Translations under genes and position numbers: made by a program | The notes under the pieces: model-generated | Database searches by the model: none | Told to the model about the DNA's origin: nothing | Seen by the model: only the letters and a program-made list of their open reading frames with translations | Assembly: GCF_001542625.1 (NCBI RefSeq) | Contig: NZ_CP016279.1 | Span: forward strand, 4,588,001 to 4,652,000 | Source of the DNA: Streptomyces griseochromogenes | Lineage (GTDB): Bacteria > Actinomycetota > Actinomycetes > Streptomycetales > Streptomycetaceae | Direction of reading: 5' to 3' | DNA: 64,000 nt | Part shown: piece after piece, positions 1 to 61,166 of the stretch | How positions within the stretch are numbered: the stretch's first letter is position 1 | How the letters are laid out: every line of letters starts with the position of its first letter

Positions 1-4037
<4,037 letters not shown>

Positions 4038-4045
<8 letters not shown>

Positions 4046-7000
4046 CGACGCGGTCCTTCAGCATCAAGGAGAGCTCTTGTTCGGCGTGGTTCAGCAGGGT
4101 GTCGAGATCCGCCGTCTCGGACTCCGGCTCCGCGGTGTGCTCGGGCTCCTCGGAGGCCGGGGCGAGCGCCGTGTCGAGATAGCCGGCCAGCGCGGTGGGC
4201 GTGGGATGGTCGAACAGCGCGTTCGCGGGCACCCGCAGCCCGGTCTCCGTGCTGAGCTGGTTGCGCAGCTCCACGACGCCCAGGGAGTTGAGCCCCTGTT
4301 CGTGGAAGGGCCTGCCCGGCCGTATCTGCGCGGAGGAGTCGTGCCCGAGCACCCGGGCGGCGTGCCGGCACACCAGGTCGCGCAGCGCGCGGGCCCGCTC
4401 GGCCGAGGACATCCCGGCAAGCCGCCGCACGAGCGAGGAGACCTCCTCGGGCGGCGTGGCCTCCTTGCTGTGCTGCACTTCGGGCAGGTTCGCGAGCAGG
4501 GGGCTGTGCCGGGTGGTGGCGAACACCGACAGGAAACGCGCCCAGTCCACGTCGGCGATCACCAGGCCGGACTCGTCCTGTGCGAAGGCCAGCTCCAGAG
4601 CGTCGATCGCCAGGTCCGGGTCGAGCACCGTCATGCCGTTGCGGCGCAGCCGCGCGCCGACGACGTCCGCGTCCGCCCCGTCCACCGCCATCCCGCCGGC
4701 TCCCCACGGCCCCCAGGCCACCGACGTGGCCGCGAGTCCGTCGGCGCGCCGCTGTTCGGCCAGCGCGTCGAGGTACGTGTTCGCGGCCGCGTAGTTGGCC
4801 TGGCCCGCGTTGCCCACAGCGCCGGTGGCCGAGGAGAACAGCACGAACGCCGCGAGGTCGCCCGCGAGTTCGTGGAGGTGCGCGGCGCCACCGACCTTGG
4901 CGTGCAGGACGCGCTCCAGCCGCTGCGGATCCAGCGCGTCGATCACGCCGTCGTCCAGGACCCCGGCCGCGTGCGCGACCGCGGTCAGCGGACGGTCCTC
5001 GGGGATCCGGGCGAGCAGGGCCGCCACCTGTTCCCGGTCGCCCACGTCACAGGCGGCCACGTCGACCTCGGCGCCGAGCGCGGTCAGTTCGGCCACCAGC
5101 TCGGGATCACGCGCGTTCCTGCCCGTCAGGAGCAGCCGCTCGACGCCCGCCCGGGCGAGCCAGAGGGCGACCCGCCTGCCCAGCGCGCCGAACGCACCGG
5201 TGATCAGCGTCGTACCGCGCACGGGCCAGTCGCGGCTGGAGCCCGCGCCGACCGGTGCGTGCAGCAGACGCCGCACGAACACTCCCGAGGCGCGCACGGC
5301 GACCTGGTCCTCCGCGTGGGACAGCGCCCCGGCCAGCCGTTCGGCCGCCCGTGCGTCCACCGTGGCCGGGAGATCGATCAGCCCGCCCCACCGCTGGGGG
5401 TGCTCCAGTGCCGCGACCCGGCCGAGGCCCCACACCATGGCCTGCGCCGGGCTGCCGAGCCGGTCGCCGTGGCCCGTGGACACCGCCTGCTGCGTCGCGC
5501 ACCACAACGGCACTTCGAGTTCGGCATCCCCCATGGCCTGGACCAGTGCCGTGGTCAGCGCGAGCCCCGCCGGTACCCCGGCGGTTCCGGGACGCTCTCG
5601 CTCGTCCAGCGCCAGCAGGGACAGCACCCCGTCGACGGCGCCGCCCTCGCCGTTCGCCAGGGCGGCCAGCCGCTCGGCGATCTCCGCGCGGTCCGCTCCG
5701 GTGCCGAGGGGCAGCGTCCGGTCGCCGAGCGCGGCCCTGAGCGGCTCCGGTACGGGCAGGTCAGCGCTGTGGACGAGCAGCCAGTTCCGCCGGTCGGCGA
5801 CCTGGTCCACGGCCGGCTGCCAGCTGATCCGGTACCGCAGCCCGTTCATCGCCGCTTCCCGGTCACGGGTGCGCCACCACTGCGCCAGCGCCGGCACCAG
5901 CTCGCTGAACTTCCGGTCGGTGCTCGTGCCCAGCAGTTCGGCCAGCAGCTTCAGGTCATGGCTCTCCACGGCCGCCCAGAACGCCGAGTCCGGCTGCCGG
6001 GATCGCCCGTCCACCGCGTCGGGCAGCAGCCAGAACCGCTTGCGCTGGAAGGCGTACGTGGGCAGATCCACCCGGCGCGCCCCGCTCCCGGCGTACCACA
6101 GCCGCCAGTCGGGTCCGTGGCCACGGACCTGCAGCGCCGCGACGGTGTCCAGCACGTCGTCCTGCCGCAGGACGGGGATCACCGTCGCCTCGACGGTCTC
6201 GCCGAGACAGTCCGCGGCCATCTCGGTGAGCGTCGTCTCCGGTCCCAGCTCCAGGAACGTGGTGACGCCCTCGTCCTGCAGTGTCCGCATCCCGTCGAAG
6301 AACCTGACCGTGCCGCGCACATGCCGCACCCAGTACTCGGGGGAACACAGCTCGTCGGCGGTGGCCGGACGCCCCGTCACATCGGACACCACGGGGATCT
6401 CGGGCGGCTGGTAGGCCAGGCTCTCGGCGACCGCGCGGAACTCGTCCAACAGCGGGTCCATCAGGGACGAATGGAACGCGTGGCTGACCCGCAGGCGCTT
6501 GGTCCGCCGCCCTTGCGCACGCAGGCGCTCGGCCAGCGCGACGACCGCCTCCTCGACACCGGAGAGCACCACGGAACGGGGCCCGTTCACCGCGGCCAAC
6601 GACACCCCGGCAGGCAGTGGTTCGACCTCCTCCGGCGCCGCCGCCACCGCGTACATCGCGCCTTCCTCGGGCAACGCCTGCATGAGCGAGCCCCGCGCCG
6701 CGACCAGTCGACACGCGTCCGGCAGGGACAGCACCCCGGCCAGATGGGCGGCGGTCAGCCCACCGATCGAGTGCCCCAGCAGCAGGTCAGGGCGGATGCC
6801 CCAGCTGTCGAGCAGCCGGAACAGCGCCACCTCGAAGGCGAACAGTCCGGTCTGTGCGAACTCGGTGCGGTCGAGGGCCGCCTGATCCGCGCCGAACACG
6901 GTCTCCTTCACCGGCAGGCCCAGCTCGGCGCACACCTCGTCGAAAGCCTCGGCGAAGACCGGGTAGGCCGCGTGCAGGGCGCGCCCCATGCCCAGACGCT

Positions 7001-10000
7001 GGCTTCCCTGACCGGTCAGCAGGAAGGCCAAGCCTCCCTCGGCCACCGCGCCGACGGTGAGCGCGGGGTCGGACCGGCCCGCCGCCAGCGCGGTCAGCGA
7101 GTGCCGCAGCCGATCCGGGTCACCGGTGAGTACGGCCCGATGGGTCAGCGCGGACCGGGTCGTGGCCAGTGAGAACCCCAGGTCGTGCGCGGTGAGACCG
7201 GCATGGGCGTCCCAGTGCGCGGCGAGCCGTCCGGCCTGGGCGCGCAGAGCCGTTTCCGAGCCGCCGGAGACCGTCAGCACAGGCGGTACGGTCTTCGTGG
7301 GCTCGGCCGCACCCGCCGCCCCGGCGGGCGGCTGCTGAAGGATCACGTGCGCGTTGGTTCCGCCGATCCCGAACGAGGAGACGCCCGCCCGTCGCAAGGG
7401 GCCGGCATCGGGCCACGCGGTCCGCTCGGTCACCAGCCGCAGCCCCGCGTCCCAGTCCACATGCGGGCTGGGCCGGTCGACGTTGAGGGTCGCCGGGATC
7501 ACCCCGTGCCGCATGGCCAGCACCATCTTCATCACACCCGCCGCGCCGGCCGCGGCCTGAGTGTGCCCCAGGTTGGACTTCACGGAGCCCACGAGCAGCG
7601 GCCGGGCCGGCGGCCGGTGCGCCCCGTACGCCTCCAGCAGGGCGCCTGCCTCGATCGGATCGCCGAGCTTCGTGCCGGTACCGTGCGCCTCCACCACGTC
7701 CACGTCGGACGGCTGCAGCCGGGCGTCGGCGAGCGCGGAGACCAGCAGCCGGTGCTGCGCGGCCCCGTTGGGCGCGGTGAGCCCGTTGCTCGCTCCGTCG
7801 GAGTTGACCGCCGAGCCCGCGATCAGGGCGAGCACCGGATGGCCGTTGCGGCGTGCGTCGGAATACCGCTCCACCAGGAACATCCCACCGCCCTCCGCCC
7901 AGACGGTGCCGTCGGCATCCTCCGCGAACGGCTTCAGCCGCGCGTCCGGTGCGAGCCCGCCCTGGCGGCTGAACTCGATGAACACCTTGGGCGACGACAA
8001 CACGGTCACCGCGCCCGCCAGAGCGAGCGAACATTCGCCACGGCGCAGCGCGGCGGCGGCCAGGTGCAGGGCGACCAGCGAGGACGAACACGCCGTGTCG
8101 ATCGAGAGATTGGGCCCCTCCAACCCGAACGCGAACGAGATCCGGCCGGAGGCCACACTGGCCACGGTCCCGATCGCCAGATGCGGCCGTACGGCGCTGT
8201 CACCGTGCCCGGGTCCGGTGCCGTAGTCACCGTGGGACAGGCCCGCGTAGACCCCGGTGTCGCTGCCGCGCAGCGTGGCCGGGTCGATCCCGGCCCGTTC
8301 GCACGCCTCCCAGGACAGTTCGAGCAGCAACCGCTGCTGCGGGTCCATGTCGAGCGCCTCGTGTCCGCCGATGCCGAAGAACGCGGGGTCGAAGTCCGCG
8401 GCGTCGTGGAGGAACCCGCCCCGGCGGACGTAGCTCGTGCCCGGCCGTTCCCGTTCCGGGTCGTACAGATCGGCCAGATCCCAGCCGCGGTCCTCCGGCA
8501 TCGCCGAGATGGCGTCACGGCCCGAGACGATCAACCGCCACAGATCCTCCGGCGAGTGCACCCCGCCGGGGAAGCGGCAGCTCATCCCGACGATGGCGAT
8601 CGGCTCGTCCGTACCGGTGCGGCGGGGGAGCGCGGGCACCGGGCGGGGCGTGCGGTTCTCCAGGTGTGCGGCCAGCCGGTTCGGGGTGGGGTGGTCGAAG
8701 AGCGCGGCAGTGGCGATCTTGAGCCCGGTCCGTTTCCGCAGTCGTTTCACCAGTTCCACGGCGGCGAGGGAGTCGAGCCCGAGCTCGAAGAACGACCGGT
8801 CCGGACCGTAGCCGCCCGCGATCATCGACTCGGTCTCGGTCCGGATCACCCGCCGCAGGTCCGCCGGCCGGGACGAGGAGCGGGAGGGCGGCTCGGCCAC
8901 GTCGGCCGGCAGATGGGTGCGCCGGCCGCCCCAGCCCCGGAAGACCGAGGGCCACCGCACCGGGACGCCATGGGTGTGCAACTCGCCCAGCGTGCCGAGG
9001 ACGGCGTGCAGGTCAGACTGCTCGGCGCCGCCGCGCAGGGCGGCGGTGACCAGCGCGGTCGCGGCGGCCGGCTCGGGCAGTGTCTCCTCGACCAGCGCGG
9101 CCAGCACCCCGTTGGTGCTCATGTCCACGTAGGTGTCCACGCCCGCCGCGTGGAGACCGGTCACACAGCCGAGGAAATGCCCGGTACCGCGCACCTGCGC
9201 GCCCCAGTACTCGGGCAGGCCGACGACCCCGGGATCCGATCCGAGCCCGTTGTGGACGGGCACGAGGGGGATGTCCGGCGGCCGCCGGGACAGACCGCGG
9301 GCGAACTGCTCGAACTCCTCGGCCATGGCGGCCATGTGCGGCGAGTGGAAGGCCCGGTCGACCGGCAGCCGCTTCACCTTGCGCCCGCGCTCCGACCACA
9401 CTCCGGCGATCCGCAGCACCGTGTCGCGGTCGCCGGAGATCACCACGGAGTTCGGGGCGTTGACCGCGGAGATCCCGGCCAGGTGCTCCACCCCGGCCAG
9501 CGACTCCAGCGCTTCCGCCTCCGAGACGCGCATCGCGACCATCGCTCCGCCGACTGGCGTCTTCTCCCGGAACAGCCGGATCCGTTCGGCCAGCAACGCG
9601 CAGACGTCGGGCAGGGAGAACACCCCGGCCACGGTGGCCGCGGCCAGTTCCCCGACCGAGTGCCCCACCACGTAGTCCGGGCGCACTCCCCAGTCCTCGA
9701 ACTGCCGGAAGAGCGCCACCTGGAGGGCGAACAGCGCGTCCTGGGTGTAGAGCGCCCGGTCGGCCGGTGCGACCTCGGTGGGGGCGTCGCCGAGCAGCAG
9801 GTCACGCACCGACCAGGTGGAGACCGCCTCCATGTGGGCGCACACATCGTCCAGGGCGTCGGCGAACACGTCGAACAGCGGATACAGCTCGCGTCCCATA
9901 CCGGGCCGCTGCCCGCCCTCACCGGGAAAGAGGAAGGCCACCTTGCGCCCGGTGCCGGCCTTTCCCGCGCCGCCCCGGCCCGCGGCGAGCTCACCGAGCC

Positions 10001-10925
10001 CGTCGGCGAGCTCGCCGCGGTCGGCGGCAAGGAGCACCGCCCGGTGCGGCTGGTGCCGCCGGGCGAGGGCCAGGGTGTGCGCGGTGTCGAGCAGATCCGG
10101 GGCGTCGGGCCCGGCAAGGCGCAGGCTCTCCGCCTTGCCCCGCAGCGTCTCCTCACTGTCCGCCGACAGCAGCACCGGCAGCGTCGGGACCGTGGTCCTC
10201 GTCGACCGCCGCGGCCGTGCGGGCGGTTCCGACAGCACCAGCGCACACGCCGTGCCCGCCCCGTCCACGCAGCCGAACAGGGCGGTCAGGCGGCTGTCCG
10301 GGCCGAGCGGAACGCCTGGTACGGGAACCTCTCTGCGGCCGAGCAGCACGGGCAGGTCCAGCAGAGCCGCCACCGCGTCCTGCTCCTCGCCCGGCTCGGT
10401 GCCGTCGAGGAGCCCGTCCAGGGGAGCCTCGGCCGGATGGTAGCCGCGCCGCCAGACGAACCGGATGTCGTCGTGGCCCACGTCGGCGCGCGCACAGGCC
10501 TGCCGTACGACGTCACCCCGGCCGAGCGCGCTGCCGTCGATCACACAGTGGATCGGGTCGTCTTCGGCCACCGCGGCCGTAACCGGCTTGAGCACCAGGA
10601 AAGCGCCGCTCCCGTCGGGCGCGACGACCCCGGCGAGCGCGAGCGCCGACTCGCCGGCGCGGATGCTCTGGCAGGCCAGGTGGATCACCCCGGCGGGCAG
10701 GGTGTCCAACGTCAGTGCCGGCCCGAGCACGCCGAGTTCGGCGGCGATCGGGTCGGCCTGCGCCATGCTGAACACCCCGGCCGCCGTGTCCCGCAGCCGC
10801 TCCGGCACGACGCCTGCGTTCTCCAGCGCCCGCAGCGCCGCTTCGGCCGGTGGCACCGCAGCGGAACGAGGGGATATGCCGATGACCGCGACTGGCGCCG
10901 GACCGGCAGTGCTGCTCGGTTGCAT
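4038..10925 (-). CDS. Type I modular polyketide synthase: degenerate loading module plus module 1
   Basis: 2295 residues. Order: a shortened KS-like region (about 11-235) without the active-site Cys; loading AT (about 328-615; GHSVG 421-425, AFHSPHM 525-531); ACP (about 690-757; GLDSL, Ser719); KS1 (about 774-1197; DTACSSS with Cys946, His1081, His1121); AT1 (about 1299-1590; GHSIGG, HAFH 1482-1485, malonyl type); no DH; KR (about 1695-2080; GxFGxLG, LDD at 1990-1992 marking a B-type ketoreductase, Ser2032, Tyr2045, Asn2049); ACP1 (about 2180-2251; GLNSL, Ser2214, Asn replacing the usual Asp); C-terminal helical docking tail. The enzyme should accept a starter, add one malonyl unit and reduce it to a beta-hydroxy group. 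It lies 24 bases after the desaturase gene, with an AGGACAGGG Shine-Dalgarno. The loading substrate is unknown; the upstream cassette suggests a modified fatty acyl chain. Confidence 0.95.
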
Positions 10926-10949
10926 AGGACCCTGTCCTGTAGTGGTTGG

Positions 10950-11819
10950 TCAGATCCCGCGGATCCGGTGGACGAACTCGGCCAGGTCGGCCGCCGAGGC
11001 CCTGCCGCTCGACGTGGCGAATCCGTTGACGAGCCGGACCAGGGCGTCATAGGCCTCGGTGTGGTCGTAGGACGTGGCGTCCGTGATCTTCAGTGACCAC
11101 CGCCAGTACCCGTTCAGCGTGTCCGCGAGCGGCATCCGGAAGGTGGACAGCACGTCCTTGAGGTCCGGCACCGTCGCCGCGAGCCCGTGCCGCCTGATGT
11201 AGGCCTCGACGAGCTCGCTGTAGAAGGCGAAGTGCCGGGCCTCGTCCCTGGCCAGCCGGTGCAGCAGATCGCACAGCACCGGCTCCTTCGCCACCGCCTT
11301 GAACCGCTGGTAGAAGAGCTGGGTGGCCTTCTCCTGCACGAGTGTGTAGGTGAACGCCTGCACCGGGTTCTCGTAGGGCAGGGCGAACTTCTTGCGGCCC
11401 TCCTCGGCCAGCTCCAGCATCAGCGTCTCGGGGTCGCTGATGCCGGCCTCGACCTGGTACCTGGTGAGCACCGACGCGTGCCGTTCCTCCTCGTTCGCCC
11501 AGGAGATCAGGAACCGGAAGTACTCCCGGTTGAAGCAGAACTCCTCGATCGCGAGGTCGGTGCCGGACACGGGGAAGGCGTCCAGGAAGTAGGTGAGGTA
11601 CCCGGGGATGTGGTCCTCGATGAACGTGATGAACCGCACCACCGACCGGTCGGTGTCGGTGAGTTGCTCCGGCCGCAGGCTCGCCCAGGACAGCTCGTCG
11701 ACCGACCACTGACGCGTCGCCGCGCGACCGACCGCGTTCCGGGTCAGCTCTCGCATCTCCCCGGGCTCGATGGACTGCCGTAACCGCTCCCCGTCGGCCT
11801 CGATCAGGGTTTCGTTCAC
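10950..11819 (-). CDS. Soluble acyl-ACP desaturase (ferritin-like diiron, FA_desaturase_2 type)
   Basis: 289 residues. All six carboxylate and histidine ligands of the stearoyl-ACP desaturase fold can be placed: Glu68 (IEDH), Glu111/His114 (EEERH), Glu163 (LVQEKAT) and Glu193/His196 (DEARH). Family members insert a double bond into an acyl chain held on acyl carrier protein, using O2 and ferredoxin. Its start overlaps the stop of the methyltransferase gene by four bases, and it directly precedes the PKS, so the likely substrate is the chain on the small ACP of this operon. The position and geometry of the double bond cannot be read from sequence. Hydroxylation or a second desaturation of an existing alkene are alternatives known for related diiron enzymes. 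Confidence 0.88.
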   Translation of the reverse strand: MNETLIEADGERLRQSIEPGEMRELTRNAVGRAATRQWSVDELSWASLRPEQLTDTDRSVVRFITFIEDHIPGYLTYFLDAFPVSGTDLAIEEFCFNREYFRFLISWANEEERHASVLTRYQVEAGISDPETLMLELAEEGRKKFALPYENPVQAFTYTLVQEKATQLFYQRFKAVAKEPVLCDLLHRLARDEARHFAFYSELVEAYIRRHGLAATVPDLKDVLSTFRMPLADTLNGYWRWSLKITDATSYDHTEAYDALVRLVNGFATSSGRASAADLAEFVHRIRGI

Positions 11820-12685
11820 GGTGCCTCCGTCGGACCCATCCGGGACTTCAGCGCGCTCAGCGCGTAGTGCTTCGTGGTGTAGCCCCAGCCGGCGTTGGCC
11901 GTCCGGAGATACCGGACGAGCGGCTCGCTCATGCCCGGCGCCACCATCTCGACCCGGTCACGCGAGGCTTCCACCCGCCGCTCCCATTCCTCGATGGTGC
12001 GGTGGTAGTGCGCGGTGAGGTCGGTGAGTCCGGTGAGGCTGAAGCCGGCCGATTCCACCGCCTCGACGAGCACCGACAGCGGCACCATGTCGGCGAACCC
12101 GAAGATTCCCTCGGTGACGTGCTTGGTGCCCGGCCGCCGCGAGAACTCCTCGTAGGCCGCGTGGTCCCGGAAGCAGCTCTCCGACAGGTACATCGAACCG
12201 CCCTGCCCGAGCAGCCCGTACGCCTTGCGCAGCACCGCCGTTCGGTTCGGCATGTGCACGATCGACCCGAGCAGGGTGACCGCGTGGAACCGTCCGGTCA
12301 CCTCGATGTCGGCGAACGACCCGAGCTCCAGCGTCACCAGGTCGGCCACGCCCAACTTCTCCGCCTGCGCCCGGATGTACTCGGACTGCGGGCGCGAAGG
12401 AGTGACGCCCGTGACACGGCAGCCGTACTCCCGCGCCATGAACAGCGTCAGGCTGCCCCAGCCGCACCCGATGTCGAGCAGGCGCTCACCGCCGGTGAGG
12501 CCGAGCTGCCGCGCCACGAAGTGCAGCTTGTTCGTCTGCGCCTGATCGAGGTCGGTGTGCTCGTCGGTGTACAGCCCGGAGCTGTACTTGAGCCGCTGGT
12601 CGAGGTAGATGCCGAACAGTTCGGCAGGCAGCTCGTAGTGCTGGTTGGTGGCCTGATAGGCCTCTTGCGGGGTGATCGAGGTCAT
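11816..12685 (-). CDS. Cyclopropane-fatty-acid-synthase-like SAM methyltransferase
   Basis: 289 residues, close to mycobacterial mycolic acid cyclopropane synthases (about 287). The SAM motif is LLDIGCGWGS (69-78), and the N-terminal YSSGLY and late AHY (Tyr227) blocks align with that family. True members methylate a cis double bond and use bound bicarbonate as base. Aligning by memory with M. tuberculosis CmaA1, Cys35 becomes Ser36, Glu140 becomes Val143 and His167 becomes Ser168; only the Tyr232 equivalent (Tyr227) remains. So it is a lipid-type C-methyltransferase by fold, but the usual cyclopropanation chemistry is doubtful. Overlapping its neighbours by four bases on both sides, it probably acts on the ACP-bound unsaturated chain. 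Methyl-branch formation, an exomethylene, or methylation of a non-lipid carbon are open alternatives. Confidence 0.85.
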   Translation of the reverse strand: MTSITPQEAYQATNQHYELPAELFGIYLDQRLKYSSGLYTDEHTDLDQAQTNKLHFVARQLGLTGGERLLDIGCGWGSLTLFMAREYGCRVTGVTPSRPQSEYIRAQAEKLGVADLVTLELGSFADIEVTGRFHAVTLLGSIVHMPNRTAVLRKAYGLLGQGGSMYLSESCFRDHAAYEEFSRRPGTKHVTEGIFGFADMVPLSVLVEAVESAGFSLTGLTDLTAHYHRTIEEWERRVEASRDRVEMVAPGMSEPLVRYLRTANAGWGYTTKHYALSALKSRMGPTEAP

Positions 12686-12957
12686 GACGTCGCCGGTTCC
12701 TCACCGATGTGCTTCTGCACCAGCGTGATCAGGTCGTCGACCGTCTCCGCGCCGAAGATGGCCTCGTCGTCGAACTCGGAGTCCCACTGGCGCTCCAGCT
12801 TGGACACCACCCTCAGCAGCTTCATCGAGTCGGCACCGGGCAATCCCTTGAGCACGTCGAGGACGTCGATGTCGGAGGGGGAGATCTCCAACTCGGTGGC
12901 CAGGCACTCGATGGTGATTTCGGCGATCTGCTCGCGGCTTATGGGCTCGCTGGTCAT
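12682..12957 (-). CDS. Discrete acyl carrier protein of the starter cassette
   Basis: 91 residues, starting at MTSEPIS. The ATG overlaps the thioesterase stop, and its own stop overlaps the methyltransferase start. The 4'-phosphopantetheine site is Ser44 in GADSM. The protein is acidic, as expected for a carrier. It sits in the middle of the operon, between the fatty acyl-AMP ligase and diiron genes upstream and the methyltransferase and second desaturase downstream. That makes it the natural platform on which the starter chain is loaded and modified before transfer to the PKS. A longer open frame upstream in the same phase is out-of-frame coding DNA of the thioesterase gene and is not part of this protein. 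Confidence 0.92.
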   Translation of the reverse strand: MTSEPISREQIAEITIECLATELEISPSDIDVLDVLKGLPGADSMKLLRVVSKLERQWDSEFDDEAIFGAETVDDLITLVQKHIGEEPATS

Positions 12958-13484
12958 GATTCTCCTGTTCCGTGGTCGAAGTAGTGCCGGACGCGGCCGA
13001 AGGCGGCATCGTCCAGTTCCATGAGGGCCTTGGCCTGCTCGGAGCGGATGGGCTGGTAGGTACCGGTGGCCATGACGTGCAGCTCGTCCCCGGGGCCGAT
13101 GATCTCGGCTTCGGTGCGCAGCACCCCGTTGCCCCGGCCGCTGATCCGCGCGACGGTCAGATACGGCTCGCCCACCCGGAGCGGCAGCAGCATCTTGGTG
13201 CGCAGGGTCACGGAGAACGCGAGCAGACCGTGGACCAGCGCGAGGGCGTCGCCCATCACCTCGTCCACCAGCACGTTCACGATGCCGCCGTGCACGATCC
13301 CCGGGTAGGAGGCGTAGTTCTCCGAGAACGTCGTCTCGGCCGCGTAGTCGCCGTTCGGCAGCTGCTTCAGGCTGAGTTTGAGACCGATCGGATTGCGGGG
13401 CGAGCAGCCGAAGCAGTTGAAGGACGGCTCCGCGTGCCAGGGAAGTTCGATCGTTTCGTCGGTGGTGTGCGCGGGAGTGCTCAC
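12954..13484 (-). CDS. Hotdog-fold thioesterase (PaaI/4HBT-like)
   Basis: 176 residues. It carries the NCFGCSPRNPIGL block typical of one PaaI-like subgroup and the HGG-x6-DE motif (His65, Asp74-Glu75) that holds the catalytic acid in hotdog thioesterases. These enzymes hydrolyse acyl-CoA or acyl-ACP thioesters. In this operon it could edit stalled or wrongly modified chains on the small ACP, or release a free acid that is re-activated by the ligase. Overlaps of four bases with both neighbours show that it belongs to the cassette. A dehydratase role is possible for some hotdog proteins but nothing here favours it. Confidence 0.85.
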   Translation of the reverse strand: MSTPAHTTDETIELPWHAEPSFNCFGCSPRNPIGLKLSLKQLPNGDYAAETTFSENYASYPGIVHGGIVNVLVDEVMGDALALVHGLLAFSVTLRTKMLLPLRVGEPYLTVARISGRGNGVLRTEAEIIGPGDELHVMATGTYQPIRSEQAKALMELDDAAFGRVRHYFDHGTGES

Positions 13485-14347
13485 GCGGAGACCTTCTCCC
13501 GCGACGACTCCTCGGCAATGGCCCGCCGCACGTCGGACATCTTCGTCAGCTTGTAGCCGGTGAGCGCGGAGAAATACTTGAACAACTGCTCACAGCACTT
13601 GGCCCATTCGCTGCCGTCCTCGTCCACCTCGGCGAAATAGGCGAACATCTCGTCGATGGTCTCGTGGTTCTCCAGCTCGGGCAGATTCCCCTTGAACCGG
13701 CTGACCGGATGGCGGTAGAGGTCGCGGGTGGTGCCCATGTAGATGTACAGGGTCTCCACCACGGACGCGCATTCCTCCGGCCGCTCCGCCAGCTGCTGCG
13801 CGGTGTAGTGGACGAATTCGCGCGCGTGCCGCGCCTCGTCGCCGCTGGCCTTCTTCAGGATCGCGGCGAGGACCGGTTCCTGCATGCTGCGGGCGACGCA
13901 TTTGTACGCGTGCGTGGCGAGGACCTCGCAGATGACGTTGGTGGCCAGTGTGGCCGCCCGGGTCACCCCCGGCGGGTACGCCCCGCGCATCGAGGCGATC
14001 GTGCTGTGGTCGATGCTGTGCCCGGCCAGCTGGAGCCAGGTCTGGAAGGCGAGGTGGTGCTGGATCTCCTGGTAGCCCCAGATGGTCGCGAACTGCGAGA
14101 AGTCGTAGTCGTCGGAGAACTCGTTGAGCAGGCCGTGGGTGGCGGCGACGACGTTCGACTCGCCCACGATGGCACCCTTGGCGAACACGATGTGCTCGGG
14201 CAGCACACGATCGGCCCGGAACTCGTCCCACGGAATGTGGTGCATCTCCCAGGTCGCATGCTGATATCCGGCGAACACCCGCGCGCTGTGCATGCGCTCG
14301 TCCGCGAGGAGCGGGACCCCGGCAGCCGATTCCGTTTTGCTGTTCAC
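13481..14347 (-). CDS. Second ferritin-like diiron oxidase/desaturase-like protein
   Basis: 288 residues and only distantly similar to the desaturase at 10950-11819. The diiron ligand set is complete: Glu63 (GESN), Glu94/His97 (YQEIQHH), Glu141 (CEVLATH) and Glu171/His174 (GDEARH). It is therefore expected to activate O2. It lies between the fatty acyl-AMP ligase and the thioesterase with four-base overlaps, so it probably oxidises the same ACP-bound chain. Candidate reactions are a first desaturation, a second desaturation giving a diene or alkyne, or hydroxylation. The EIQHH variant and the long C-terminal part (about 200-288), which I cannot assign, suggest a subfamily of its own. Confidence 0.82.
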   Translation of the reverse strand: MNSKTESAAGVPLLADERMHSARVFAGYQHATWEMHHIPWDEFRADRVLPEHIVFAKGAIVGESNVVAATHGLLNEFSDDYDFSQFATIWGYQEIQHHLAFQTWLQLAGHSIDHSTIASMRGAYPPGVTRAATLATNVICEVLATHAYKCVARSMQEPVLAAILKKASGDEARHAREFVHYTAQQLAERPEECASVVETLYIYMGTTRDLYRHPVSRFKGNLPELENHETIDEMFAYFAEVDEDGSEWAKCCEQLFKYFSALTGYKLTKMSDVRRAIAEESSREKVSA

Positions 14348-16056
14348 ACCCGTTCTCCTTGGTCAGTGCTTGTGGTGGTGGGGAACACCCGTGCGTCGAG
14401 ATCGGTGGTGACGCGTCGCGCGGCCAGTCCCCGCTGCCACTTGCCGCTCGTGGTGCGGGGGATCCACCGGGGTTTGACCACGTAGACCTGCACCTGGGAC
14501 AGATCCAGCTCGGCCGCCACCCGTCTGCGGACCTCCCCGTACACCGTGGCGGGATCGTCACCGGCCTCCACGATGACGCCGATCCGCTCGCCGCCCTCGG
14601 CATCGTTGTCAGCGAAGGCGACGCAGCGGCGGCGGTACACGCCCGGCACGGCGCGCGCCACCCGCTCGACGTCGTCGGGGAAGAAGTTCTGGCCGCGCAC
14701 CACGATCATCTCCTTGCGCCGCCCGGTGACGTACAACTCGCCGTCGAGCAGGAAACCGAGGTCGCCGGTGCGCAGCCAGCCGCCGTCGAACGCCGCCTTC
14801 GTCGCCTCGGCATCGCGGAAGTACCCGGTGGTCACCGATCCGCCGGCGATCTGGATCTCGCCGAGCACTCCGTCCGCGGCAACCGCCCCGCCTTCGTCGA
14901 CGATCCGGAGGTCGATGCCGTGCACCGCCCGTCCGACCGAGACGACCGGTTTGGCCGTGGGCGCGCTCTCGTCGACGGTTCGTGCGGTGCCGGTCCTGGC
15001 GAGTTCGCGGCGGTCCACCGCGCGGATCGTCGCGGTGTCACCGGGGCTGGGGTAGCTGATCGACAAGGTGGCCTCGGCCATGCCGTACACCGGGTACATC
15101 ACCGACGGATCGACGCCGCTGGGCGCCAGGGCCTCGGTGAACCGTCGTACGGTGGCCGCGCTGACCGGTTCGGCGCCGTTGAACGCCAGCCGCCAGCTGG
15201 ACAGATCGAGCGCGGCGAGCCGCTCCGCCGGCACGCTGTCGAGCAGGTGGTCGTAGGAGAAGTTGGGTCCGGTGAGCACCGTTGCGCGGTGTGCGGCGAA
15301 GTGCTGGAGCACCTCGCCCGGGCGGCGGAGGAAGGACATCGGGGCGAAGACGTGGACGTCGGCGCCGTTGAGCCAGTGCGACTGCAGCCCGATCAGGCCC
15401 ATGTCGTGGAAGGTCGGCACCCACTGCACGAACACGTCGTCCGGGCTGAAGGCGCCCGACACCACGCAGGAGCGCAGGCCGGCCATGGTGGTCCGATGCG
15501 GCAGCATCACGCCCTTGGGCAGGCTGGTGCTGCCAGAGGTGAACTGGACGACGGCCAGCGAGTCCGGCTCGACGGCGGGCAGGGTGCGCGGGTTGCCGAT
15601 GCCACCGGGCGAAGGCGAGGGTACGAGGGTCAAGTCGGCCCGCAGGGTGGCCAGTTCACGGCCGAGCGTGTCGTAGTCGCTGTCCAGCACGAGGTGGCTG
15701 ATGCCGGCGACGTCCGTGATGCGCGCCAGTCGCTGGGCGACCGCTCGCACGTCCGTGAAGCCGGCCTGGACGGGCAGCACGCTGATCGCCGCCCCGGCCC
15801 GCCAGAGCCCGAAGATCGTGGTGAAGAAACGGGCGGCGGTGGGCACCAGCACACCCACGATGTCACCGGGCCGCACCCCGGCGCGCAGAAACTCGTGCGC
15901 GGCCGCCGCCGATGCCGATTCGAGGTCCGCAGCGGTGATGTCGTCGCCGGCGGTGGGAAATCTCGCGCGGGAATCCGGTGAGGCCTTTGCTAATCGGGCC
16001 AGGCTTTCCCCCAGGGTCTCCCCGTCCAGGAGAGCTGGTCGCATGCGGCGCTGCAA
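14344..16056 (-). CDS. Fatty acyl-AMP ligase (FAAL), starter activation
   Basis: 570 residues. It has the AMP-binding P-loop QFTSGSTSLPKG (171-182), the FNGAEPV block typical of FAALs, YGMAEAT, WLRTGDLG, VTGRRKEMI and the C-terminal catalytic lysine in TTSGKWQRG. The segment around AVDRRELART and VSVGRAVHG also matches the FAAL rather than the CoA-ligase pattern. FAALs form acyl adenylates and hand the chain to an ACP instead of CoA. As first gene of the operon it should load a fatty acid onto the ACP at 12682-12957. I chose the TTG start at 16056 because an AGGGG Shine-Dalgarno lies seven bases before it; an in-frame ATG at 16044 is less well placed. Its stop overlaps the next gene by four bases. 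Confidence 0.92.
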   Translation of the reverse strand: MQRRMRPALLDGETLGESLARLAKASPDSRARFPTAGDDITAADLESASAAAAHEFLRAGVRPGDIVGVLVPTAARFFTTIFGLWRAGAAISVLPVQAGFTDVRAVAQRLARITDVAGISHLVLDSDYDTLGRELATLRADLTLVPSPSPGGIGNPRTLPAVEPDSLAVVQFTSGSTSLPKGVMLPHRTTMAGLRSCVVSGAFSPDDVFVQWVPTFHDMGLIGLQSHWLNGADVHVFAPMSFLRRPGEVLQHFAAHRATVLTGPNFSYDHLLDSVPAERLAALDLSSWRLAFNGAEPVSAATVRRFTEALAPSGVDPSVMYPVYGMAEATLSISYPSPGDTATIRAVDRRELARTGTARTVDESAPTAKPVVSVGRAVHGIDLRIVDEGGAVAADGVLGEIQIAGGSVTTGYFRDAEATKAAFDGGWLRTGDLGFLLDGELYVTGRRKEMIVVRGQNFFPDDVERVARAVPGVYRRRCVAFADNDAEGGERIGVIVEAGDDPATVYGEVRRRVAAELDLSQVQVYVVKPRWIPRTTSGKWQRGLAARRVTTDLDARVFPTTTSTDQGERV

Positions 16057-20714: not shown

Positions 20715-23108
<2,394 letters not shown>

Positions 23109-23325: not shown

Positions 23326-25716
23326 GTGGTGCGGCGGATCGGGGAGTTCACCGTGGAACGGCGCCTCGGCGCCGGCGGTATGGGCGTGGTGTACCTGGCG
23401 CGCAGCCCTGCCGGACGGCGGGTGGCGCTGAAGGTGATCCGCCCCGAGTACGCCGACGAGCCGCACTTCCGTGCCCGGTTCCGGCACGAGGTGGCGGCGG
23501 CCCGCAAGGTGAGCGGGGCCTTCACGGCGTCCGTGGTGGACGCCGACCCGGACGGCGATCCGCCGTGGCTGGCCACGCAGTACGTCGTCGGCGACTCGCT
23601 CGACGCGCGCGTGCGATCTCGCGGCCCGCTGCCCGTGGCCGACGTCGTCCGACTGGCCGGCCAGCTCGCGGAGGCGCTGCGCGACATCCACCGGCAGGGG
23701 ATCGTGCACCGCGACCTGAAGCCCGCCAACGTCTTGCTCGCCGCCGACGGCGTACGGGTCATCGACTTCGGCATCGCCCGGTCCGTCACCCGGAGCCGGG
23801 CGCTGACGCGCAGCGGTGCCATGGTCGGCACCCCCGCCTTCATGGCACCGGAGCAACTGGACTCGGCCCGGGCGATCTCCCCGGCGACGGATGTGTTCGC
23901 CCTGGGGAGTGTGCTGGCCTTCGCCGCGCTGGGCCGCAGCCCCTTCGAGGACCCCGAGGCCGCCGGCCTGGAACCGATCGCGGTCGCCTTCGCGGTGGTC
24001 CACAAGGAGCCGGACCTGGCCGGTCTCCCCGCTTCGTTGCGCCCGCTGGTGGCCCGCTGTCTGTCCAAGCACCCTGCCCGCCGGCCGGACCTGGACGAGG
24101 TGCTGCGCCTGGCGACCTCGGTCGGCGGGGGATCCGACGACCGGGGCCGCGTGTGTCCGGCGCGGCGCCGGCGGCCGGTCCGGGCGGCGGTCGCCCCGCT
24201 CGCCGTACTCTGCGTACTCGCCCTCCTCCTTCTCGTGGGCGATGTGTCGCGGTCGGCCCCGTCGGCGGTGCTGCCCTGTGCCGACGGACTGAGCGCCCTG
24301 GGCGAGGGCCACATGCGCAGATGTGTCGGCCTGCTGGCGGCGAACGCGTCGGCGGCGGGGCTGCGGCGCTCGTCCAGCCGGGTCGCCGCACCGGTGCTGG
24401 AGCGGATCGCCGCGGAGAACCGGCGGGTCGTGACGGCCGCCGCGAAACCGGGCGGCAGGCCGTACGTGTCGATGGTGTACCTGACGCCCATCACCGAGGA
24501 GTTCGACGGGAGCGCCTCGATGGAGTCGGTCCGGCGCGATCTGGAGGGCGCCTACCCCGCCCAGGTCAGAGCCAACGGGAGACTGACCGACGTACATGCC
24601 GACGCGTCCACGTACCGCGGCCCGCCGGTCCGGGTGCTGTTCGGCCAGACCGGCGGCACCGCCGGGCAGCGGGAGCACACGGTCCGGCAGGTGCTCGGGG
24701 CGCGCCGTGCCGAGCGGATCGTGGCGGCGCTCGGCCTGGGCGGCAGCACCGCCTCCAGCCAGGACATGGTGGAGGAGCTGACGGCCGGCGGCCTGCCCGC
24801 CTTCGGCTCGGTCCTGACCGCCGACTCCTGGGCCGCCGTGCCCGGCCTGGCTCGGGTCGCGCCCGCCAACGCCGACCAGGCGGCGGCCGCCGTGCGCCAC
24901 CTGTCGACCGGCGCGCTCGCCCGCGCGCGGGTCCTGTTCGTGCAGGACATCGCCCCCGGCGACCAGTACACCAGTACACTCGCCGAGCAGTTCCGCGCCC
25001 GGATGCCGGCCGGCCGGATGGTGCGCGCGGAACCCACTCTGTTCGACTCCTCGCGGCCCGGCCTGACCGACACCTTCCGCACCGAACTGGCCGATGTGTG
25101 CAGGGTGAAACCGGACGTCGTCTACTTCGCCGGCCGCGGCACCTCGCTTCCGGACCTCCTGACCGTCCTCGCCGCACGCCCCTGCCCGGACCACCGGATC
25201 ACCGTGATGTCCGGCGACGACACCCTGATGGTCTGGCACGCGAAGGGCTTCGGCCCGCACGAACTGGCCGGCATCCTCGGCAGGGGCGGGATCGACCTCG
25301 TCTACACCGGCCTCGCCCATCCCGGAGCCTGGGACGTGGCGCCGGACGACTTCGATCCGGACCTCGTCGCGCCCTTCCGCGACGGCACGTTCGCGCACAG
25401 CTTTCCGCACAGCGACCTGGACGACGGACGAGCCATCATGATGCACGACGCCCTGCTCACCGCGGCCCGAGCCGTCCAGGAGACACCTGCCGTGCCCGAT
25501 CCCACGGTCGCCGACGTCTACCGGACTCTGTCCCGGCTCCGGAAGACAGGACCGCTGCCGGGCGCGAGCGGCTGGATCGCCATCGGAAACGACGGTGCCC
25601 CGAAGGACAAGGCGATCCCCGTCCTGCGGATCACCCCCGACGGCCGCACCACCGCCATCACGGTCACCTCTGCGGACGGCACCCCGCAGGGCGGGACGGC
25701 ACGGAAGGCTCGGTAG
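23326..25716 (+). CDS. Ser/Thr protein kinase with extracellular substrate-binding-protein-like sensor
   Basis: 796 residues, GTG start. The kinase domain (about 7-265) has GAGGMGVV, Lys36 in VALKVI, HRDLKPAN (Asp130), DFG (147-149), APE and a PASTA-free tail. A transmembrane helix follows at about 285-305. The outer part (about 310-796) looks like a type 1 periplasmic-binding fold of the branched-chain amino-acid receptor kind: paired Rossmann-like segments such as RVLFVQDIAPGDQY, DVVYFAGRG and ITVMSGDDTLM. It is therefore a one-protein sensor kinase that could bind a small extracellular ligand. It is transcribed alone from a GC-rich 217-base leader. Kinase assignment is firm; the sensor fold is inferred from pattern and size. 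Confidence 0.88.
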   Translation: MVRRIGEFTVERRLGAGGMGVVYLARSPAGRRVALKVIRPEYADEPHFRARFRHEVAAARKVSGAFTASVVDADPDGDPPWLATQYVVGDSLDARVRSRGPLPVADVVRLAGQLAEALRDIHRQGIVHRDLKPANVLLAADGVRVIDFGIARSVTRSRALTRSGAMVGTPAFMAPEQLDSARAISPATDVFALGSVLAFAALGRSPFEDPEAAGLEPIAVAFAVVHKEPDLAGLPASLRPLVARCLSKHPARRPDLDEVLRLATSVGGGSDDRGRVCPARRRRPVRAAVAPLAVLCVLALLLLVGDVSRSAPSAVLPCADGLSALGEGHMRRCVGLLAANASAAGLRRSSSRVAAPVLERIAAENRRVVTAAAKPGGRPYVSMVYLTPITEEFDGSASMESVRRDLEGAYPAQVRANGRLTDVHADASTYRGPPVRVLFGQTGGTAGQREHTVRQVLGARRAERIVAALGLGGSTASSQDMVEELTAGGLPAFGSVLTADSWAAVPGLARVAPANADQAAAAVRHLSTGALARARVLFVQDIAPGDQYTSTLAEQFRARMPAGRMVRAEPTLFDSSRPGLTDTFRTELADVCRVKPDVVYFAGRGTSLPDLLTVLAARPCPDHRITVMSGDDTLMVWHAKGFGPHELAGILGRGGIDLVYTGLAHPGAWDVAPDDFDPDLVAPFRDGTFAHSFPHSDLDDGRAIMMHDALLTAARAVQETPAVPDPTVADVYRTLSRLRKTGPLPGASGWIAIGNDGAPKDKAIPVLRITPDGRTTAITVTSADGTPQGGTARKAR

Positions 25717-56222: not shown

Positions 56223-57635
56223 TCACGCCGCGGCCGAGGGACGGATGTTCTGGTTGAGTCGGAAGAAGTTCGTGGGGTCGTAGGTGTCCTTCACCCTCAC
56301 CAGCCGTTCGTGAACGGCACCGGGGTAGGAGGCGCGCACCTTGTCCTGGGCGGCGTCGCCGGTGAAGTTGACGTACGTGGCCCCGTGGCCGTGGTGCGCG
56401 ATCTCCTCGCGGGCGGCGCGGGCCCAGGCGACATGCGCGTCGAAGTTCGTCGCTTCGGGGGATCGTGCGACCACGTTGCACAGCATGCCGGGATCGCGCT
56501 GGCTGAAAGCCGTGGCCTCGGCGGGCACGCGGGCGAAGGCGCCGCCCAGCTGGTGCAGATGCAGTTCGCTGGAGGGCGTGGGCGTCGTCAGGTGCTGTCG
56601 CAGCACGGCGTCGAGAGCGGCGTCGGTCGGCTCGATGAACGCCGACGTGAAGTAGTTGTGGGCGCCGGCCGTCCACAGCGGGTCGAGCATGGACTGCATG
56701 CCCGTGTACGGCATGGGGCCCAGGAGGTCGGCGATGGGCGTGCCCAGCGTCCGCAGCGGTCCGACGGCCGCCTCTCCGGCCGCGGGATCGCCGGCGTACA
56801 TGCCGAGCAGCACCACGACGCGGGTGCCGTGCACCTCCTGGGGCAGGAACGGCAGGGGAGGGGCCGTCGTCAGGTTCACCACCGTCGTCAGGTCGTCGGG
56901 CATGCCTTCGGTCAGTTCGCGCCAGCCCGTGATCACCTGACGGGCCTGCTCCCGGGGATAGACGATCAGGCCGGCCAGGACCTGCGGCCCGACCGGGTGC
57001 AGTCGGTACTCGAGCGAGGTCACGACACCGAAGTTGCCGCCACCGCCACGCAAGGCCCAGAACAGCTCCGAATGTTCTTGCCGGTCCGCGCGCACCACGC
57101 GGCCGTCCGCCGTGACGACCTCGGCAGCCGTCAGGTTGTCGGAGGCCAGCCCGTGGCGGCGCAGCAGCCAGCCCACGCCGCCGCCCAGCGTGAAGCCGGA
57201 GACACCGGTCGTGGAGACCAGGCCGCCGGTCACGGCGAGGCCGAAAGCCTGGGTCTCGTGGTCCAGGTCGCCCCAGGTCAGACCGGCCTGCGCGACCACA
57301 CGGCGCCCCTCGGGATCGACGATGGCGCCCTTCATCGGCGACAGGTCGATGACGATGCCGTCATCACAGGTCGAGAACCCGGCGATGCTGTGGGCACCGC
57401 CGCGCACGGCGACGAGCAGGTCCTGGCTGCGGGCGAACTCGACGGCGCGGATCACATCCGCCGTTCCGGCGCAGCGCACGATCAGGGCCGGATGCCGGTC
57501 GTGGGCCCCGTTCCAGACCGCGCGCGCCTGGTCGTAGCCGGCGTCGTCAGGGCGTACGACCCTGCCGCGCAGGCCTGCCTCCAGCTCGGCGATGGTGGCG
57601 TCCCCCAGGACGCCCTTTGCCGTGTCGATCGACAT
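56223..57635 (-). CDS. FAD-linked oxidase of the BBE/PCMH family
   Basis: 470 residues from ATG at 57635, preceded by GAGGAG. FAD-binding PCMH domain: VRGGAHSIAGF with the His that is covalently linked in this family, then GFTLGGGVGWLLRRHGL and SDNLTAAEVV. The second flavin link (Cys in GxCxxVG) reads STTGVSG, so attachment is probably through one residue only. A C-terminal BBE segment (TYVNFTGD, DPTNFFRLNQNI) closes the site. It oxidises alcohols, sugars or secondary metabolites with O2. Lies 68 bases after the AfsR-like regulator gene on the same strand. Confidence 0.9.
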   Translation of the reverse strand: MSIDTAKGVLGDATIAELEAGLRGRVVRPDDAGYDQARAVWNGAHDRHPALIVRCAGTADVIRAVEFARSQDLLVAVRGGAHSIAGFSTCDDGIVIDLSPMKGAIVDPEGRRVVAQAGLTWGDLDHETQAFGLAVTGGLVSTTGVSGFTLGGGVGWLLRRHGLASDNLTAAEVVTADGRVVRADRQEHSELFWALRGGGGNFGVVTSLEYRLHPVGPQVLAGLIVYPREQARQVITGWRELTEGMPDDLTTVVNLTTAPPLPFLPQEVHGTRVVVLLGMYAGDPAAGEAAVGPLRTLGTPIADLLGPMPYTGMQSMLDPLWTAGAHNYFTSAFIEPTDAALDAVLRQHLTTPTPSSELHLHQLGGAFARVPAEATAFSQRDPGMLCNVVARSPEATNFDAHVAWARAAREEIAHHGHGATYVNFTGDAAQDKVRASYPGAVHERLVRVKDTYDPTNFFRLNQNIRPSAAA

Positions 57636-57684
57636 GGTCGGCTCCTCGGTATGAGTGCTTGCGCTGATGTCCACGACCGTAGGC

Positions 57685-60700: not shown

Positions 60701-60928
60701 TACGGCGTGCAGCACCTGGTGCAGGTTGTTCGCCGCGGCCGTCCGGTCGAGGTCCGGCCACAAAAGGTCGTAGAGCCGCTCCCGGTGCAACCGGTGACCG
60801 GACGACAGGCACAGCAGTTTCAGCAGACTCCGGGCCTTGCGCAGCCGCCACGCCCCGGCGGCGACCGGGCGGTCCTCGACCGCCACGGCGAAACCGCCGA
60901 GGAGCCGGATGCGCACCTCATCGGCCAT
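57704..60928 (-). CDS. AfsR/SARP-type regulator with NTPase and TPR domains
   Basis: 1074 residues from ATG at 60928, which follows GAGGG; a GTG at 60940 is possible. Order: winged-helix DNA-binding region (RLLGGFAVAVEDRPV, LLKLLCLSSG), bacterial transcriptional activation domain (about 100-250), NB-ARC/AAA ATPase with P-loop TGAGGCGKTRLA and LLLDNCEH, then many TPR-like helices up to about 1060. AfsR-like proteins activate secondary-metabolism genes and hydrolyse ATP. It is upstream of the BBE oxidase on the same strand and could activate it; no biosynthetic genes adjoin. Long for the SARP class but typical of the AfsR/LuxR-TPR type. Confidence 0.9.
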   Translation of the reverse strand: MADEVRIRLLGGFAVAVEDRPVAAGAWRLRKARSLLKLLCLSSGHRLHRERLYDLLWPDLDRTAAANNLHQVLHAVRRALASAGAPDDVVVLRDDLVLLGPDGGVRIDLDAFDEAARQASDAGGTAEYRAALALAAPGLLPEDRYEPWVSEAAEALETRRTALRLGLAEALEHDHHTAEAVDVLRTLITEDALHEPGHRALMRVLADAGRRREALAVYERLRDALREDTGADPDPQTRRLYRELLADSVEQPEQRPGNPRHNLPAPATALIGRERETAEVEQLLGRGRLLTLTGAGGCGKTRLALAVAARRRDDFRDGTWFVDLAGLAEPHLVPEAVAAALGLQLPQTGGGREALIAQLGGRKTLLLLDNCEHLIDACAVLVSQVMARCPDVFVLATSREPLRSYGERTFRVPSLGLPDPRRLPSVEELSRFASVRLFVERAAEAAPGFRLTRGNAEAVAQICFRLDGMPLALELAAARVQVLAPRQIAERLDDALALLGRGSRRGATRQETLLATLEWSHRLLDDEERRLFRRLAVFAGGFSLAATEEVCADGPQDTSVLDLLGRLAEKSLVWVEPRQDEVRYRLLETIRQYAAERLRDAGERAAIEARHRSFYLALAEARDRERPTGVCGATSLELEADYGNLRAALRSLLRDDPDSALRLAVALRSFWPERGRLAEGRRWLEDALAAAPEPTPRRASALMGRAVLAIRLGDGSPLEDIAEQIVGIQQRRQIPSALASAHCQQAILLWMRGAWGRARTALDRARALAREASASSVLAAAAHLDGVWAVCRGEGSMAREACEETLRLLDDVEADSLPFFPVMTPGYTVEDDGEGRVSLCFEETVLAGRTVGPSRARGYALANLAWATRLVGDTGAAVVAAERGVDCFRVLADPHGESLALNALGNVHRSRGDHEAARKYLDAALAIRRRVGDRREEGITLGCLGLLRLAEGDVTGARATIAGVLAGFEETDDIPGITNSLLHLGLVARAAGDTARARALLTRAQRLEQVAGSASAGGWVALMLARLLWQEGEHEAAEARAARATELFAHLGCTRGQALLRRTPRPAPTAQSGC

Positions 60929-61166
60929 GGCTGCCCTCACGAGCAGGCTACCGCCGGCTGCCCGCCGGGGCCCGGGCTGGACAGGACGCCCGGAGGAGCC
61001 GCGGGAGGGCAGGGCCCGGATGCGTGATCACGGTCGTCGGGGAAGGATCGGCAGGGGCGGACCACGCACCGCGACCCAGCGCGGCGCGCCCGCCGACCGG
61101 TGCCTCGGCGTCTACCGTCCGAGCTGGGGGCAATGCCCTTTCCGGCCTCCTTACCGGAGCATCGAC

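Follow-up and report, generated by a model that had tools for sequence, protein, structure and literature searches.

A conserved operon predicted to couple acyl-ACP tailoring to a short polyketide synthase in Streptomyces griseochromogenes

Results

Organization of the operon

We analyzed an operon on the minus strand of a 64,000-nucleotide stretch of the Streptomyces griseochromogenes genome (contig NZ_CP016279.1, positions 4,588,001 to 4,652,000; hereafter the window), in which six genes for the predicted tailoring of a fatty acyl group on an acyl carrier protein (ACP) are followed by two polyketide synthase (PKS) genes. It belongs to a single-contig genome of 10.76 Mb, of which 120 kb were examined, 88 kb of that to the left of the window, and the genes, order, domain make-up, metal ligands and conservation reported here were read from sequence comparisons. 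The cassette opens with a fatty acyl-AMP ligase (FAAL; 14344..16056, 570 aa) that starts at a TTG at 16056, with an alternative ATG at 16044, and matches Pfam AMP-binding with an E value of 9.9e-59. It is followed by DI1, a diiron protein of the ferritin-like/acyl-ACP-desaturase fold (13481..14347, 288 aa; Ferritin_2 25.6 bits, cut-off 24.7); a hotdog-fold (4HBT) thioesterase-like protein (12954..13484, 176 aa; 4HBT 23.6 bits, cut-off 20.6); a stand-alone ACP with a GADS motif (12682..12957, 91 aa; PP-binding 33 bits, cut-off 20.8); a CMAS-family S-adenosylmethionine methyltransferase that lacks Cys, Glu and His at the bicarbonate site (11816..12685, 289 aa; CMAS 146.8 bits, cut-off 27); and DI2, a soluble acyl-ACP desaturase (10950..11819, 289 aa; FA_desaturase_2 62.5 bits, cut-off 22.7). 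PKS1 (4038..10925, 2295 aa) and PKS2 (first part at 1..4045 of the window; 1942 aa in total, ending at genome position 4586217) complete the order FAAL-DI1-hotdog-ACP-CMAS-DI2-PKS1-PKS2, and the name given to each of these genes matches its Pfam result.

All six cassette genes are joined by 4-bp overlaps, GTGA at FAAL/DI1, DI1/hotdog and CMAS/DI2 and ATGA at hotdog/ACP and ACP/CMAS; DI2 and PKS1 are spaced by 24 bases, and PKS1 and PKS2 overlap by 8 bases. An earlier sequence-only reading had proposed an eight-gene operon with ATGA overlaps and a 24-base gap ahead of the PKS. The operon is real, with seven genes within 4038-16056 and the eighth, PKS2, starting at 4045 and extending past the window edge, and the coding overlaps and the gap are as described, but three of the five overlaps are GTGA rather than ATGA. 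No further tailoring gene coupled to the operon was seen at either flank: a divergent carboxymuconolactone-decarboxylase-family gene forms the upstream flank of the FAAL gene, and the frames beyond PKS2 appear by eye to be unrelated to the operon.

Enzymes of the cassette

The FAAL combines an AMP-binding fold with closest solved relatives that include the FAALs 3pbk and 3kxw, and its alignment to 3pbk runs without a large gap across the region that we take to hold the FAAL-specific insertion. For the hotdog protein, the top match in the Protein Data Bank was the hypothetical protein PA5202, with thioesterase superfamily member 2 among the others. DI2 exceeds the FA_desaturase_2 cut-off, its closest solved relative by sequence is Mycobacterium tuberculosis DesA2 (1za0, E 3.6e-9), and its six diiron ligands (E68, E111, H114, E163, E193 and H196) are invariant in 14/14 sequences. 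DI1 falls below the FA_desaturase_2 cut-off (12.8 vs 22.7 bits) and is not a desaturase by that measure; it nevertheless has the acyl-ACP desaturase fold with a six-ligand diiron site, and, as in DI2, all six ligands are retained. The full ligand sets in both proteins bear out the two soluble diiron enzymes that the sequence-only reading had placed in the cassette.

When the methyltransferase was aligned to the cyclopropane fatty acid (CFA) synthase structure 7qos, the bicarbonate-site Cys, Glu and His corresponded to S36, V143 and E169, and the Tyr to Y227. We take these four residues to bind bicarbonate in CFA synthases and CmaA1. The protein thus carries the CMAS Pfam domain but not the Cys, Glu, His and Tyr set expected of a cyclopropane synthase. 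A protein-database search returned 6011 matches, and among the best 120 of these approximately 78 shared 63-70% identity with the window protein. For a census of site residues we used 146 entries with E below 1e-40, a redundant set in which the same gene occurs under locus and protein identifiers; position 169 is Glu in 144 of the 146, Asp in one and Ala in one. A carboxylate at this position could serve as the base in place of bicarbonate, which, if so, would bring the enzyme closer again to alkene methylation.

The PKS assembly line and its loading module

With the PKS2 domains assigned by Pfam, the assembly line is complete and short. PKS1 consists of a short, dead ketosynthase (KS; residues ~1-245), an acyltransferase that we call AT0 (~323-632) and an ACP, followed by a KS-AT-ketoreductase (KR)-ACP module, and PKS2 reads KS-AT-dehydratase (DH)-KR-ACP-thioesterase (TE). 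The modular PKS of the sequence-only reading is indeed modular, but it comprises only two extension modules and a TE. AT1, the acyltransferase of the first extension module, carries the motif HAFH and that of PKS2 carries YASH and GHSQG, which we take to mark malonyl and methylmalonyl specificity, respectively. Both KRs carry LDD and retain the Tyr. In the DH the motif reads HxxxDxxxxP instead of HxxxGxxxxP, so that this domain is probably, though not certainly, active. We predict the chain R-CH(OH)-CH2-CH=C(CH3)-CO-, with R derived from the starter.

The loading KS-like stretch has Pro at the active Cys in 11/11 copies, has lost the second His in 11/11 and the first in 10/11 (in locus L002 of S. 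cellostaticus one His letter aligns), is interrupted by deletions near both positions, and is absent in Winogradskya and Kibdelosporangium, the two most distant loci. It therefore lacks the Gln for Cys and the intact His of a KSQ loading module. AT0, on the other hand, retains GHSVGE, the Arg (presumably the malonyl-carboxylate binder) and the FHS His in 15/15 copies, and in 15/15 it reads GEGGQ instead of GQGxQ. A census of 41 distinct ATs in the regions examined, in which sister-species copies collapse and the AT0s of two further places (G775 and G783) were checked separately, gave 13 with GEGGQ, 24 with GQG, 3 without a motif in the stretch searched and one, probably mis-assigned, with GMGRQ. 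Mean pairwise identity across 11 sequences was 84% for AT0, 80% for AT1, 87% for the KS of the first extension module and 60% for the dead KS; constraint is therefore apparent on AT0 and far weaker on the dead KS. Among solved structures, AT0 matched a GfsA KSQ-AncAT chimera best and other cis-AT proteins next. We read the loading module as a former decarboxylating malonyl loader whose KS may have decayed once another source of starter existed.

Conservation and genomic contexts

A DI1 pattern scan, which picks up close relatives only, covered 84,980 species at one genome each and gave 12 loci, in Streptomyces, Kutzneria, Acrocarpospora, Amycolatopsis, Winogradskya and Kibdelosporangium. The order FAAL-DI1-hotdog-ACP-CMAS-DI2 was identical in 12/12, which exceeds chance, and a PKS bearing a window-type loading AT adjoined the cassette at all of them, divergent from it in 10/12; in NBRC 109706 and S. 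cellostaticus it lies downstream as in the window. Of the named relatives encountered, S. cellostaticus was the closest, with 87-96% identity across the six cassette proteins. The best match to the window TE lay near the cassette by coordinates in 12/12 genomes, at 66-92% identity in 10 of them, in frames of 1945-2011 aa (4338 aa in one), and at 42-43% in Winogradskya and Kibdelosporangium, whose assembly lines are longer (by motif, four extension modules in the former and three in the latter).

Additional places came from a CMAS search across 295 genomes of the genus, which contributed four, and from a DI2 alignment search across 150 genomes of the Amycolatopsis orientalis family, which gave 12 matches and contributed nine, because three (G002, G007 and G012) were already in the set and were counted once. 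Adding the window itself and the 12 DI1-scan loci, where DI1 is present by construction, gave 26 places. The FAAL-ACP-CMAS-DI2 core was found in 26/26, with CMAS adjoining DI2 in every one, and the six genes were complete in 21/26; this neighborhood comparison, with the six-gene order at 12/12 DI1 loci, upholds the gene set described in the sequence-only reading. At the 13 places not chosen via DI1, FAAL, ACP, CMAS and DI2 stood in the same order in 13/13 (the ACP of L035 by BLASTP), the hotdog gene was present in 12 (absent in L034) and DI1 in 8 (absent in L034, L035, G707, G758 and G722). The genes are sparsely distributed: with E values up to 1e-10, DI1 was found in 1/396 genomes sampled from the phylum, namely the window's own, CMAS relatives at E up to 1e-70 in 5/295 genomes of the genus, its own included, and DI2 at E up to 1e-60 in 12/150 genomes of the A. 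orientalis family, that genome included.

The surroundings of these 13 places varied, and much of the gene set is found in soil actinobacteria next to differing types of assembly line. Two (G775 and G783) adjoin a window-type PKS. In G809 and G768 the cassette adjoins an iterative synthase, known in G809 from motifs only; the G768 synthase comprises by Pfam KS, AT, five ACPs and KR, with a separate FabA-like protein, which we take to be the make-up of a polyunsaturated fatty acid (PUFA) synthase. P450-like and LysR-like genes were also observed by eye near the PUFA-synthase-like PKS, which has tandem ACPs, in both (G768, L058; G809, L053/L054), with a second AMP ligase in G768, and these regions look like an uncharacterized lipid cluster. 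The neighbors in G707 are an aminotransferase I/II protein, an Acyl_transf_3 protein and a second AMP ligase, and G722 is partly alike by sequence. A nonribosomal peptide synthetase-like frame (by eye) lies ~5.5 kb from the L035 cassette, and L033 has a KAS III gene together with phosphopantetheinyl transferase-like and carbamoyltransferase-like frames (by eye). Neighborhood is no proof of shared function.

In Kibdelosporangium aridum (L013 / L020-L022), KAS III-like and FabF-like genes adjoin the cassette, and a second FAAL-like frame was seen by eye ~8 kb past the PKS. A P450-like gene, named by sequence look, with a common N-terminus, LFDPRDP or TFDPRDP, occurs near the cassette or PKS in L003, L008, L009, L012, L013, L026-L027 (NBRC 109706) and G775 (L049-L050); none was seen adjoining the window operon.

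Comparison with known systems

We found no characterized cluster with this gene set in the open full-text literature, a weak negative given that subscription papers were mostly outside its scope; the sequence-only reading had named such a cluster as what would overturn it. In the mycolic-acid pathway, FadD32, AcpM, DesA1/DesA2, CmaA/MmaA and Pks13 act such that soluble desaturases and CMAS enzymes work on an ACP-bound chain before a PKS. The window resembles this machinery in placing a FAAL, an acyl-ACP, soluble acyl-ACP desaturases and a CMAS methyltransferase ahead of a PKS, and in DI2, whose nearest solved relative is DesA2; it differs in being one small operon and in its CMAS site residues, and the window FAAL scores far under the FadD32 cut-off (223.9 vs 975 bits). 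GfsA-type KSQ-AT-ACP loading modules are similar in their AT, as the best solved match of AT0 indicates, but the window-type KS has Pro in place of Cys or Gln, has lost the catalytic His, or is absent.

Jam-type cassettes likewise place a FAAL, a dedicated ACP and a desaturase ahead of a PKS. In jamaicamide synthesis, as far as the available portion of the source describes it, JamA and JamB load a fatty acid on a dedicated ACP through the FAAL and alter the chain with a desaturase before PKS extension (PMC11837247). Unlike these, the window has a methyltransferase and two diiron proteins of the soluble, ferritin-like kind, and no membrane desaturase or acetylenase of the kind expected for Jam-type alkyne formation was present among the seven operon frames or PKS2. 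According to the accessible text on the afc cluster of Burkholderia (AFC-BC11), a FAAL is combined there with two acyl-ACP-desaturase-like proteins, one of whose genes is dispensable, and a KAS III-like protein (PMC12186527). We dropped it as a homologous system because that cluster description, in the part available, includes no CMAS-type methyltransferase partner; in contrast to the window, the AFC-BC11 and bolagladin clusters of Burkholderia are described, in the sections available, as lipopeptide systems with nonribosomal machinery. Two further papers were considered from partial text: a streptavidin/acidomycin paper (PMC13336041) mentions only parts of the gene set, and the available text of a PUFA-hybrid paper (PMC13291983) makes no mention of desaturase, cyclopropane, AMP ligase, diiron or Amycolatopsis.

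For DI1, BioE of biotin synthesis may offer a precedent, and only a precedent: the portion of its report available describes a ferritin-like diiron oxygenase with a six-ligand site that cleaves a long-chain acyl-ACP at C7-C8 (PMC12915131). Compared by ligand positions and not by sequence, its ligands (E26-E53-H56-E125-E155-H158) are spaced differently from those of DI1 (E63-E94-H97-E141-E171-H174). VinK, from macrolactam loading, is an acyltransferase precedent for ACP-to-ACP transfer (PMC11284099). Halogenases of the CylC type, which also belong to a FAAL-ACP pathway, were considered as well, but we claim no relationship to them.

Neighboring genes

Upstream of the FAAL gene by 4.7 kb lies an ABC protein (20715-23108, plus strand, 797 aa; Pfam ABC_tran) that resembles UvrA by eye, and the margin of locus L002 in S. 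cellostaticus shows a similar gene start; the ABC protein could be a self-resistance function or a mere neighbor. Elsewhere in the window we observed a Ser/Thr kinase (23326-25716, plus strand; Pfam Pkinase), whose C-terminal part resembles by eye a periplasmic ligand-binding domain, and a BTAD/TPR regulator of 1078 aa (57704-60940, minus strand) adjoining a BBE/FAD_binding_4 oxidoreductase at 56223-57674.

Discussion

Given this organization, we consider it probable, at roughly 0.6, that the cassette is a portable unit for acyl-ACP tailoring and provides the two-module PKS with an unusual acyl starter, here for a hydroxy-methyl-enoic acid lipid. We infer the chemical steps, their order, the chain length and the product as follows. 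The FAAL would adenylate a free fatty acid and load it onto the stand-alone ACP, DI2 would introduce a double bond (or another oxidation) into the acyl-ACP, and the CMAS-family enzyme would place a methyl group on the DI2 product by a route that dispenses with the classical bicarbonate site, the near-invariant E169 perhaps acting as a built-in base. In cassettes carrying DI1, this protein would make a second O2-dependent change, and the hotdog protein may edit or release acyl groups. The tailored acyl group could reach the PKS via the conserved AT0-ACP loading unit or pass directly to the first KS, after which module 1 would add malonate and reduce it to the alcohol, module 2 would add methylmalonate and leave a C=C bond, and the TE would release R-CH(OH)-CH2-CH=C(CH3)-COOH, or its lactone or dimer. 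Counted in favor of this proposal are the six-gene synteny in 12/12 loci and the TE-bearing frame near the cassette in all 12 genomes, the four-gene core and the CMAS-DI2 pairing in 26/26 places, the presence of DI1 in 8/13 places not chosen by it, the desaturase fold of DI1 and the complete ligand sets of both diiron proteins, as well as the loss of the loading KS, which would be expected if the starter no longer comes from malonyl decarboxylation.

Several observations weigh against it, and they define its rivals. Gene order is the sole tie between the cassette ACP and the PKS. AT0 is an intact malonyl-type domain, closest among solved structures to GfsA KSQ-AT constructs and more conserved than AT1, so malonyl loading fits it better than acyl transfer, and this evidence favors the rivals as much as the proposed starter pathway. 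No window-type PKS was seen at 11 of the 13 places not chosen via DI1 within stretches of 6.6 to 40 kb, such that the cassette product may be a free acid or a thioester of wider use. The sequence-only reading, which had the dedicated-ACP cassette tied to the PKS and priming it, therefore gains from synteny across genera, but has to accommodate a loading module with its own conserved malonyl-type AT and some cassettes that occur elsewhere, with no PKS of this type in the stretches examined. Among the 146 redundant entries, the bicarbonate-site Cys is retained in 6, the Glu in 1 and the His in none, with only the Tyr kept in all 146; because the subfamily has lost these residues, its reaction cannot be read from CFA precedent. 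Of the CFA-type alkene methylation in the sequence-only reading, family membership holds, and the chemistry itself is a guess with the Glu and His, and nearly always the Cys, gone.

The conservation of the AT0 Ser, His and Arg in 15/15, its closeness to KSQ-AT loading modules and the occurrence of the cassette without this PKS are also what one would anticipate if the PKS started from malonate or acetate via AT0-ACP and the separate acyl group of the cassette were joined later, by an ester, an amide or TE-mediated coupling. We regard this as rather unlikely, as no decarboxylating KS remains, no separate acyltransferase gene is present among the window operon frames, cassette and PKS are tightly coupled translationally, and AT0 has GEG where 24 other ATs of the regions examined have GQG (4 more lack a clear motif). 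With its intact malonyl-type AT and a KS that is dead or missing, the loading region might alternatively be a split extra extension module, in which AT0 loads malonate as extender and a KS acting in trans (the first KS, or host FabF/FabH) condenses the cassette acyl group; the KAS III-like and FabF-like genes, named by sequence look, beside the Kibdelosporangium cassette would suit this arrangement, but the window operon has no such KS gene, and we hold it to be improbable.

Two other explanations concern the acyl group itself. Through ordinary CFA chemistry, the cassette could make a fatty acid with a cyclopropane ring or a methyl branch, to which the CMAS score of 146.8 bits, the acyl-ACP desaturase gene adjoining CMAS in 26/26 places and the analogy with the mycobacterial DesA and CmaA/MmaA enzymes all point; the residue census just given argues the other way, leaving this possible but doubtful. 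Conversely, the cassette could be a unit of new chemistry, in which a CMAS methylation that needs no bicarbonate and uses E169 as base takes place between two diiron oxidations, the acyl type is new as a building block, and AT0 is an ACP-to-ACP shuttle marked by the change from GQG to GEG. Examples of such acyl groups would be a methylated diene that cyclizes to a furan and a chain shortened by cleavage so that it ends in a carboxylate; the second would agree with the carboxylate Arg kept in AT0. We consider this quite unlikely.

Returning to the starter-supply proposal, the operon itself is real and conserved, and its chemistry is predicted. Its protein families are known, as is the logic by which a FAAL-ACP cassette precedes a synthase. 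We therefore regard it as a variation on a known theme whose interest comes from its spread and small size. If the proposal is right, assembly lines of several kinds draw custom acyl groups from one small set of shared genes. Because the window version has only eight genes and two extension modules, a single host could carry the entire reconstructed pathway; this would make ferritin-like diiron chemistry on acyl-ACP, and the chemistry of a CMAS enzyme that lacks the bicarbonate site, directly testable.

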